From Fervidobacterium pennivorans (lineage in GTDB: Bacteria; Thermotogota; Thermotogae; Thermotogales; Fervidobacteriaceae), in NCBI RefSeq assembly GCF_001644665.1, contig NZ_CP011393.1, positions 248,001-312,000 on the forward strand: a stretch of DNA of 64,000 bases, read 5' to 3'. How positions within the stretch are numbered: the first letter of the stretch is position 1; each line of letters opens with the position of its first letter. The position numbers and the translations under genes are program-made. Shown in pieces: positions 4,275 through 6,699 of the stretch. The notes beneath the pieces were generated by a model that saw only the letters and a program-made list of their open reading frames with translations, made no database searches and was not told where the DNA came from.

Positions 4275-5159
4275 TCAAACCACCTTATCTATCCTCCTAA
4301 AGCCTTCACCGAGAACATACCTCGCTTCTGTGACGATAACGAACGCTTCAGGGTCGATATGACGAATTACGTTCAGCACTTCACCAAGTTCTCTGCGCTT
4401 TAGTGCTACGTAGAGCACGTCGATATCTCTACCCGAGTAAGCGCCCTGCGCTTTGAGTATCGTTGCACCGCGTTCCATTTTCTCAAGGATGTATCTTTTA
4501 ATCTCATCCACTTTTTTTGAGATAATCATCATCGTTACGGAGAGTTCAAGGCCTTTGAGCACAAAGTCAATGGTGATACCATTTATAATTATCGCAAGCA
4601 ACGCATACATGGCGATTCTCGCGTTGAACGCAAATCCTGCAAATATACCTATAGCGAAATCAACCATAAGTAGCGTTGTCCCTATCGGCGTGTGGAAATA
4701 TTTCGAAATTATCTTTGCTATAATATCCGTGCCACCCGTTGATGAGTTGTTCGCAAACGCTATAGCCATACCGATGGATGCTAATACGTTACCAAAAAAC
4801 ACAGCAAGCATTAAATCTTCACCAGTATATTTCGGAATATTTATTATTCTGTCAAACAAATCGACAAAGAAGTTCAAAGCAAACGTTGAGTATATCGTCT
4901 TGAAACTGAAATCTTTACCAACAAGTAAAAAGCCTAACACGAAGAGGACAACGTTAATGATGTACATCCAAATGCCCACAGGAACGGTGGAAATCAACTT
5001 GTGCAGAATCATTGCCATACCACTCGCGCCACCTGCTGCGATGTTGTTTGGAATGAAGAATATCACTAGTCCAAGCGCGGTTAACATAACACCTACCGTA
5101 GAAAGCACATACTCTTTTATCTGTTCTTTCAAATCGAAATCTTTCGAAAACTTAACCAT
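4275..5159 (-). CDS. YitT family membrane protein (DUF161 + DUF2179)
   Basis: A 294-residue protein with five or six hydrophobic helices between residues 17 and 205, including the conserved FANNSSTGGTDIIA region near 135-150. A soluble C-terminal DUF2179-type domain follows (near 215-285, with ALKRRELGEV). YitT proteins are widespread in Firmicutes and Thermotogota; no transport or enzymatic activity is firmly established. The ATG follows GGAGGG. The gene stands alone, converging on the receptor gene, with the IS110 element directly upstream in what should be its promoter region. Length is normal for the family. A long open frame on the opposite strand across this gene is a coding shadow. Confidence 0.85.
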   Translation of the reverse strand: MVKFSKDFDLKEQIKEYVLSTVGVMLTALGLVIFFIPNNIAAGGASGMAMILHKLISTVPVGIWMYIINVVLFVLGFLLVGKDFSFKTIYSTFALNFFVDLFDRIINIPKYTGEDLMLAVFFGNVLASIGMAIAFANNSSTGGTDIIAKIISKYFHTPIGTTLLMVDFAIGIFAGFAFNARIAMYALLAIIINGITIDFVLKGLELSVTMMIISKKVDEIKRYILEKMERGATILKAQGAYSGRDIDVLYVALKRRELGEVLNVIRHIDPEAFVIVTEARYVLGEGFRRIDKVV

Positions 5160-5305
5160 ATCCTTTCCCTCCTCGTATAATAAGTTCGGTAAAAATTAAA
5201 ATTGGTCTTTGAAAATTGAATGCATATTTTTTAACACCTCTGGTAAAATAGTTTCAGGTTGCCCCTCCTTGAGACTTTGTTCTCTTAAATAAGATTGCCT
5301 AACTA

Positions 5306-5380
5306 GAGTACAGCTTTTTACTTGCCGGAAAATGTTTTGCCTCGTTTTCTTATGTACCGCGAGGTTGTAAGGCTGTACTC
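5306..5380 (+). ncRNA. candidate IS110 bridge RNA (structured leader)
   Basis: Seen: a perfect 9-bp helix, GAGTACAGC (5306-5314) with GCTGTACTC (5372-5380), continued inward by TTAC (5318-5321) with GTAA (5367-5370), then a hairpin CCTCG (5340-5344) with CGAGG (5360-5364). This leaves a large internal loop at about 5322-5339 and a 15-base end loop. Known: in the IS110 group a bridge RNA is encoded just 5' of the recombinase and uses loops to pair with donor and target DNA. Inferred: this helix is all or part of that RNA, which probably begins further upstream (5240-5300). Promoter, ends and guide bases are not established. Confidence 0.45.
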
Positions 5381-5398
5381 AATCCGGAGGTGATTCCT

Positions 5399-6547
5399 TT
5401 GGCTATTTTAGCTATTGATGTCTCAAAGAACTATCTTTCTTTCTTTTCTGATTTCATCGGTAGTGGGACTGTTGAGAACTCTCCTCAAGGTATTGTTGAA
5501 CTTTTTAACAAAGCTTTTGCTTCTTCTTCCGATTTTTCTCTTGTCCTTGAATCAACTGGTGTTTTTTCTTTTAATGTCGCTAACTTCTTCTTTCAAAACA
5601 ACGTACCTGTCTTTTGGGTTAAAACTGATAACATTAAGCTCTATCGCAAAATTCTCAATCGTCCTAAAACTGACAAAATCGATGCTGAACTTATTTTCTC
5701 TATCGCTTCTAAATTTCCTGAGTCTTTAGTCCCTTTTGTCAATAACTCATATATCATCTCTGAGCTTCGTAATCTCACCAGACTTTATTTAAAGTTCAAC
5801 GAAGATATCGCTCGATTGAAACTTAGGCTCTATTCGTATGTTTCTCTTTATTTCCCTAAACTTGACTTTAAACTAAATAAGACTTTCGAATGCCTGCTTA
5901 AAGATTATACAATCGAAGAAATCGCAAACATGCCAATTGAAGAGTTATTTGAATATATTGCGAAAATTTCCAGACACAATGTCTCTTCACAAGTCTTAGC
6001 AGAAAAACTCCAAACTCTTGCTAAAGATGCCTTGAGGTTGTCTGTTAATCCTTCAAACACTCTGAGAATATCTATTGTTTCCACTATCGATTTGATACAG
6101 CACTATGAAAAACAAATCGAACTAGTAAAGAAAGAAATAAGTAAATTACTTAAAGTAATTTCGAACACACTAACAACAGTCAAAGGGATAGGAGAAATAA
6201 CTGCAGCTGGAATTATAGCCGAAATAGGAGACATCAATCGTTTCGAAAAAGCCTCAGCGTTAGCATCATACGCAGGGCTTGTATGGACAATCAATCAAAG
6301 TGGAAATTACAAATCAGAAAACAACCAACTAACGAAAAAAGGGAACAAGTATCTAAGAACATACCTAGTAATGGCAGCGAACGGAGTAAAGACATACGAT
6401 CCTGTATACAAAGAATATTATCGCAAAAAGTACGCAGAAGCAACAACACACAAACACATGAGAGCGCTAATATTAACTGCAAGGAAATTAGTAAATTTAG
6501 TGTATTATTTACTAAAGAACAACGTACCGTATGTACCGATGAAATAG
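5399..6547 (+). CDS. IS110-family recombinase (DEDD transposase)
   Basis: A 382-residue recombinase with both halves of the family. The N-terminal RuvC-like domain shows D7 in AIDVSK, E51 in LESTG, and D92 and D95 in KTDKID, the DEDD set. The C-terminal transposase_20 domain has TVKGIGEITAAGI, YAGLV and the catalytic serine S301 in NQSG, followed by KKGNKYLR. All key residues are present, so the enzyme looks intact. The TTG at 5399 is chosen because GGAGGTGAT (5386-5394) precedes it with good spacing. The GTG at 5390 overlaps that site. The sense strand is T-rich in the first third to half and A-rich afterwards, a marked change in third-position use near 5880. Neighbouring genes do not show this. 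Confidence 0.93.
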   Translation: MAILAIDVSKNYLSFFSDFIGSGTVENSPQGIVELFNKAFASSSDFSLVLESTGVFSFNVANFFFQNNVPVFWVKTDNIKLYRKILNRPKTDKIDAELIFSIASKFPESLVPFVNNSYIISELRNLTRLYLKFNEDIARLKLRLYSYVSLYFPKLDFKLNKTFECLLKDYTIEEIANMPIEELFEYIAKISRHNVSSQVLAEKLQTLAKDALRLSVNPSNTLRISIVSTIDLIQHYEKQIELVKKEISKLLKVISNTLTTVKGIGEITAAGIIAEIGDINRFEKASALASYAGLVWTINQSGNYKSENNQLTKKGNKYLRTYLVMAANGVKTYDPVYKEYYRKKYAEATTHKHMRALILTARKLVNLVYYLLKNNVPYVPMK

Positions 6548-6699
6548 GTAAAAAGAACGAAATCAAGTATGTGAAGAATGAAAGTGAAATATTAAGTTAT
6601 TGAAAGTCAAAGTGTTGACTAGGTTTTTTATTTTTCTATTTTTTCTCCTCTTGACTTATTACCGGAAATCTTCCTTGCCATATTTTTTGTTTTTTCCTT

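Follow-up and report, generated by a model that had tools for sequence, protein, structure and literature searches.

An IS110-group insertion sequence of Fervidobacterium pennivorans with a predicted bridge RNA and a preference for Shine-Dalgarno sites

The window analysed here is a stretch of 64,000 nucleotides from Fervidobacterium pennivorans (NZ_CP011393.1, positions 248,001 to 312,000, forward strand), and the element under study is an IS110-group insertion sequence at positions 5174-6669 of this window. It comprises a left end (LE) of about 216-225 bp, a recombinase gene and a right end (RE) of 122 bp, with a long non-coding stretch 5' of the recombinase and without long terminal inverted repeats. 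Six identical full copies and one fragment are present in the genome, and a Fervidobacterium metagenome-assembled genome carries an identical copy. A preliminary description had proposed, from the shape of the leader, that the region upstream of the recombinase is a bridge RNA. The features of the locus include the left and right target guides (LTG, RTG) and the left and right donor guides (LDG, RDG) of the predicted RNA, and are as follows.

5167-5173, + strand: left target CCCTC followed by the CT core; the opposite strand reads as the Shine-Dalgarno sequence AGGAGGG of the gene at 4275-5159 (- strand), with its ATG at 5159
5174-6669, + strand: IS110 element, 1496 bp
5176-5181, + strand: -10 hexamer TATAAT, completed in the predicted circle by the -35 hexamer at 6651-6656, with a 17-base spacer across the junction
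5204-5220, + strand: leader motif GGTCTTTGAAAATTGAA, boxA-like, conserved in relatives
5238-5389, + strand: predicted outer closing stem, CTCTGG (5238-5243) with CCGGAG (5384-5389); the 3' arm overlaps the Shine-Dalgarno sequence of the recombinase
5249-5305, + strand: predicted target loop, just 5' of the donor-loop hairpin
5261-5269, + strand: putative LTG GCCCCTCCT, followed by T, anti-Shine-Dalgarno-like
5290-5293, + strand: putative RTG UAAG, read by eye, pairing with CT-T-R
5306-5380, + strand: hairpin of the donor-binding loop, which the preliminary description had seen
5325-5331, + strand: putative LDG CCGGAAA, identical to right-end bases 6662-6668
5349-5359, + strand: tentative RDG CTTATGTACCG, a discontiguous complement of the LE sequence CGTATAATAAG (5174-5184)
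5390-6547, + strand: IS110 recombinase, with a GTG start at 5390 or an in-frame TTG at 5399; D10, E54, D95, D98 and S304 assigned by motif
6651-6656, + strand: -35 hexamer TTGACT, in the right end
6670-6671, + strand: right copy of the CT core

With regard to the recombinase, which had been described as an intact DEDD/serine enzyme, both IS110 domains were indeed detected intact, DEDD_Tnp_IS110 (PF01548, E = 5e-18) and Transposase_20 (PF02371, E = 4e-25). In the alignment of the recombinases, D95 and D98 are invariant, while E54 and S304 lie within conserved motifs, and the C-terminal part is similar to two recombinases of known structure, those of IS621 and ISCro4 (E about 1e-7, a weak similarity to IS621). 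Relatives with protein identities as low as about 40% occur in Fervidobacterium, in its family, in Marinitoga and further afield, and no relatives of the recombinase were found in viral contigs.

All copies of the element exhibit the left boundary ...CT/CGTATAATAAG and the right boundary ...TTACCGGAAAT/CT, which places the left end of the focal element at 5174. At three loci, the flanks joined over a single CT correspond to the uninterrupted sequence in related genomes: the empty sites between rplV and rpsS (CCCTCCTTATTTC) and at gap (CCCTCCTTAAAATG) are exact matches, and that of a YitT-family gene (TCCTCCTTTCTTG) has two differences, both outside the conserved junction. Because the joined flanks reproduce the empty sites, a comparison that the preliminary description had suggested, the element spans 5174-6669 and its core is CT, and the insertion is scarless at a core common to both ends. 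A TC core, our first idea, was ruled out, as the right flanks of clade 2 have only CT in common and the empty sites fit CT. Joining RE to LE gives TTGACT-17-TATAAT, an arrangement kept in six lineages with a spacer of 17 or 18 bases; a consensus scan for promoters directed outward at the left end, toward the host gene, was negative.

The hairpin of the preliminary description was recovered with all its parts. A perfect 9-bp helix (GAGTACAGC at 5306-5314 with GCTGTACTC at 5372-5380) is followed by an inner TTAC/GTAA helix (5318-5321/5367-5370) and an end hairpin CCTCG/CGAGG (5340-5344/5360-5364); the internal loop has 18 bases and the end loop 15. The region 5290-5399 folds at -34.7 kcal/mol (z = -3.85; none of 200 dinucleotide shuffles is as good), and 5160-5399 gives z = -2.80 against dinucleotide shuffles. 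The compensatory changes that had been suggested as a check were found. When six divergent leaders are aligned with MAFFT (A1), the described hairpin is 98.1% paired, versus at most 62% for slid partners, and five pairs change on both sides; over the alignment, 95.7% of cells pair, with changes on both sides at six pairs. An alignment fitted by a covariance model (A2), comprising eleven distinct rows, shows 90.8% pairing versus 31-49% for slid partners and 18 pairs changed on both sides. For instance, GAGTACAG/CTGTACTC is replaced by GCATACAG/CTGTATGC in relatives, and the apical stem of the target loop exists as GAGA/TCTC, GAGC/GCTC and GCAC/GTGC. The leader is thus predicted to hold two internal loops on covarying stems, of which the preliminary description had seen the donor-loop half, missing the target-loop half (5249-5305), the outer stem (5238-5243/5384-5389) and the left end at 5174.

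The minimum-energy form given by RNAfold, in which the LDG is paired with the end loop, was dropped, the relatives supporting CCTCG/CGAGG or TTGC/GCGA instead, two alternatives that are indistinguishable from the relatives here. The covariance model of the leader has members in 13 of the 103 genomes of the phylum, in four genera. At the Rfam gathering threshold, the whole window yielded tRNAs only and no described bridge RNA family. The sequences GGTCTTTGAAAA and TGCTCTTTGAAAA are conserved early in the predicted RNA, at 5204-5220 and the equivalent positions in relatives, and resemble the boxA of rRNA; the 17-base boxA-like pattern is confined in this genome to the six copies of the element.

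The predicted first loop is complementary to the target and covaries with it. The LTG of the focal element matches the left flank and CCCTCCT targets, and in relatives the LTGs CATCCCCCT, CCACTCCCT and ATCACCTCT are found with the targets AATCCCCCT, TGACTCCCT and TTCACCTCT, respectively. Across lineages, the LTG-target identity is 4.35 of 7 versus 3.48 of 7 after permutation (p = 0.007), all guides being already Shine-Dalgarno-like. By eye, the RTG is UAAG with CT-T, UGAG in Marinitoga with CT-C-A, and UUUAG in genome G019 with CT-A or CT-G. With regard to the predicted second loop, its left side (the LDG) is complementary to the donor and tracks the right end in three variants: CCGGAAA with CCGGAAAT, CGGTGA with CGGTGA, and CCGGAGA with CCGGAGA. 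The loops therefore match the element ends and the targets and change lineage by lineage, and the proposal of a bridge RNA stood, extended beyond the donor-loop half on which it had been based; the leader very probably encodes such an RNA. The DNA coding for the guide (5261-5270) includes CCCCTCCTT, itself a fit to the target of the element, and insertion of the element into itself must accordingly be infrequent or avoided.

The new observation beyond the preliminary description is the target itself, a Shine-Dalgarno sequence. Shine-Dalgarno sequences stand before many genes of most bacteria. Every copy in this genome has on its left flank a Shine-Dalgarno sequence in reverse complement, and a gene runs away from the element. 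The proposed target of the focal element is CCCTCCTT, and the preferred target CCCTC-CT-T, the complement of AAGGAGGG, is present at many gene starts. A strict rule (an ATG open reading frame (ORF) with a minimum of 50 codons at a distance of 6-18 bases, with Shine-Dalgarno-like bases) holds for 20 of the 32 lineage insertions versus 78 of the 7456 CT dinucleotides of the window (1.05%; binomial 5e-32), and several insertions outside this rule have GTG or TTG starts. Most insertions thus lie inside the Shine-Dalgarno sequence of a gene, leaving AGGAGG and the start codon intact. With the exchange at A/AG/GAGG and a copy of the core retained at each end, the gene regains an adjacent AGGAGG. The 3' end of the 16S rRNA of this genome is GGATCACCTCCTTTCT, and CCTCCTT is common to this end and to the LTG with its next base. 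In the window, an ORF start follows four of the five CCCTCCT sites, so the guide alone would explain the Shine-Dalgarno preference.

The genes hit in the genus include, as named from their N-terminal sequences, rplV, gap, an alcohol-dehydrogenase-like gene and a transporter-permease-like gene. Within the ribosomal protein operon of a single-contig genome, one copy (L002, G000:C1:19931-21437) separates rpsS from rplV and lies antisense to the operon. Two insertions (L032 and L023) were considered as non-Shine-Dalgarno insertions and ruled out, since they are nested, an IS110 of a third lineage having landed in the Shine-Dalgarno sequence beside the focal element. Read by eye across the nested IS110, the target of L023 is TCTCCTCCT, identical to its LTG.

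We conclude with high confidence that the focal element is an insertion sequence of the IS110 group whose left end encodes a bridge RNA like that of IS621. Several points weigh against this. The six copies of the genome are identical, so their insertions are separate events and not separate lineages; few independent changes stand behind alignment A1, and alignment A2 is biased toward the structure of its model. At the core, the LDG does not match cleanly; for the RDG, the match is discontiguous in the focal element and weak in relatives. Among the insertions, L020 (AAAAGATCT) fits neither the guide nor a Shine-Dalgarno sequence, the guide and target of L128 are mismatched, and L130 lies at CCCTCCT with no detectable gene start after the site.

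The hairpins of the leader could instead serve only for translational or transcriptional control of the recombinase, with the protein picking the target, and the outer stem does cover the recombinase's own Shine-Dalgarno sequence. However, such control does not predict loops equal to the right end and to the flanking target, nor their joint change between lineages, which makes this explanation very improbable. The Shine-Dalgarno bias could also result from selection, gene-breaking insertions being lost, without any RNA guidance. At the surviving sites, one of them before the ribosomal protein gene rplV, gene and ribosome-binding site are indeed undamaged, whereas the position of insertion is base-exact, its orientation is fixed, and the empty sites of related genomes read ..CTCCT-T. 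Moreover, the CCCTCCT site of L130 is used, and guide differences follow target differences. We consider selection on its own likewise very improbable, although it may add to guidance.

Other IS110 lineages of the phylum were also considered, and two distant ones within the genus likewise use Shine-Dalgarno sites. A second lineage (25-28% identity; L140-L148 in G000 and G004, L149-L158 and L169-L172 in G002) exhibits GGAGG before start codons in most of the 22 sites examined. Its core differs from CT, CC fitting one exact empty site, and its candidate right guide is longer: TTACAGGAGTC in G000, where right targets are mostly YGT, and TTTAAGGAGTC in G002, where they are mostly TTA. Species that differ in this candidate right guide differ correspondingly in the right flank. 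The third lineage (L160-L164 in G003, L040 in G012) has the opposite orientation, with the Shine-Dalgarno sequence on the right. It is twice inserted in the site beside the focal element, and its leader carries a long perfect inverted repeat over the ribosome-binding site of the transposase. Shine-Dalgarno flanks were looked for and not seen in the multi-copy IS110s of G068, G038 and G044, so Shine-Dalgarno targeting is not common to all IS110 elements; the multi-copy IS110 of G068 (L186-L193) has T-rich target flanks.

In the proposed mechanism, RE and LE would join in a circle upon excision, and a promoter of sigma-70 type would arise, from which the leader would be transcribed. Pairing with the target would fall to the first internal loop (LTG GCCCCTCCT, RTG UAAG), and pairing with the element's own junction to the second one (LDG CCGGAAA, tentative RDG). 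By homology with IS621, the DEDD/Ser recombinase would then recombine target and donor at the CT core. The LTG would mimic the anti-Shine-Dalgarno sequence of 16S rRNA, which would explain the preferred target CCCTC-CT-T, and with AGGAGG rebuilt, the coding sequence and the ribosome-binding site of the host would survive. We infer expression of the RNA, assembly of the complex, recombination and the consequences for the host gene, and homology and covariation suggest that RNA guides the reaction.

The focal element resembles IS621, which also has an IS110 DEDD/Ser recombinase and, as predicted here, a guide RNA 5' of the gene, with the target loop followed by the donor loop (PMC11208160, PMC11208158). 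The LTG on the 5' side of its loop matches the left target including the CT core, with the same order and strand logic (PMC11208160), and CT is also the core of IS621 (PMC11208158). The predicted junction promoter and the tentative discontiguous RDG pairing likewise resemble those of IS621. In contrast, IS621 targets repetitive extragenic palindromic (REP) elements and not the Shine-Dalgarno complement; the focal host is a thermophile, and the end hairpin CCTCG/CGAGG of the focal element encloses the proposed RDG. ISEc21, also of IS110 type, has its target determined by a seekRNA, a non-coding RNA encoded upstream, and this target is a coding region of IS3 elements (PMC11187229). The IS110 transposase genes of Fervidobacterium were already catalogued as groups IS110_I-III, whereas their target and RNA are not described there (PMC5398504).

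An IS110 element aiming at translation initiation signals is not new, as IS900 of Mycobacterium avium subsp. paratuberculosis does so. Earlier work on IS900 is reportedly that of Doran et al. in 1997. The target of this IS110-family element, CATGN6TCTCCTT (PMC8141618), corresponds to a start codon and a Shine-Dalgarno complement in the same order as in the focal element, whereas its host is a high-GC mesophile and IS900 carries the antisense hed ORF. A bridge RNA guide linked to the IS900 target was not found in the open literature searched, and Shine-Dalgarno-aimed bridge RNAs may be described elsewhere. On balance, we lean slightly toward anti-Shine-Dalgarno mimicry being a repeated strategy of RNA-guided IS110 elements, in at least three deeply diverged Thermotogota lineages and probably in IS900, with the ribosome-binding site of the host kept.

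The predicted bridge RNA is one of a thermophile, with guides placed, ends that are base-exact and guide-target covariation that occurs in nature. The finding also makes an RNA guide a candidate explanation for the choice of translation initiation signals by IS900, and suggests that a guide of about eight bases can give an element many mild, host-independent landing sites.
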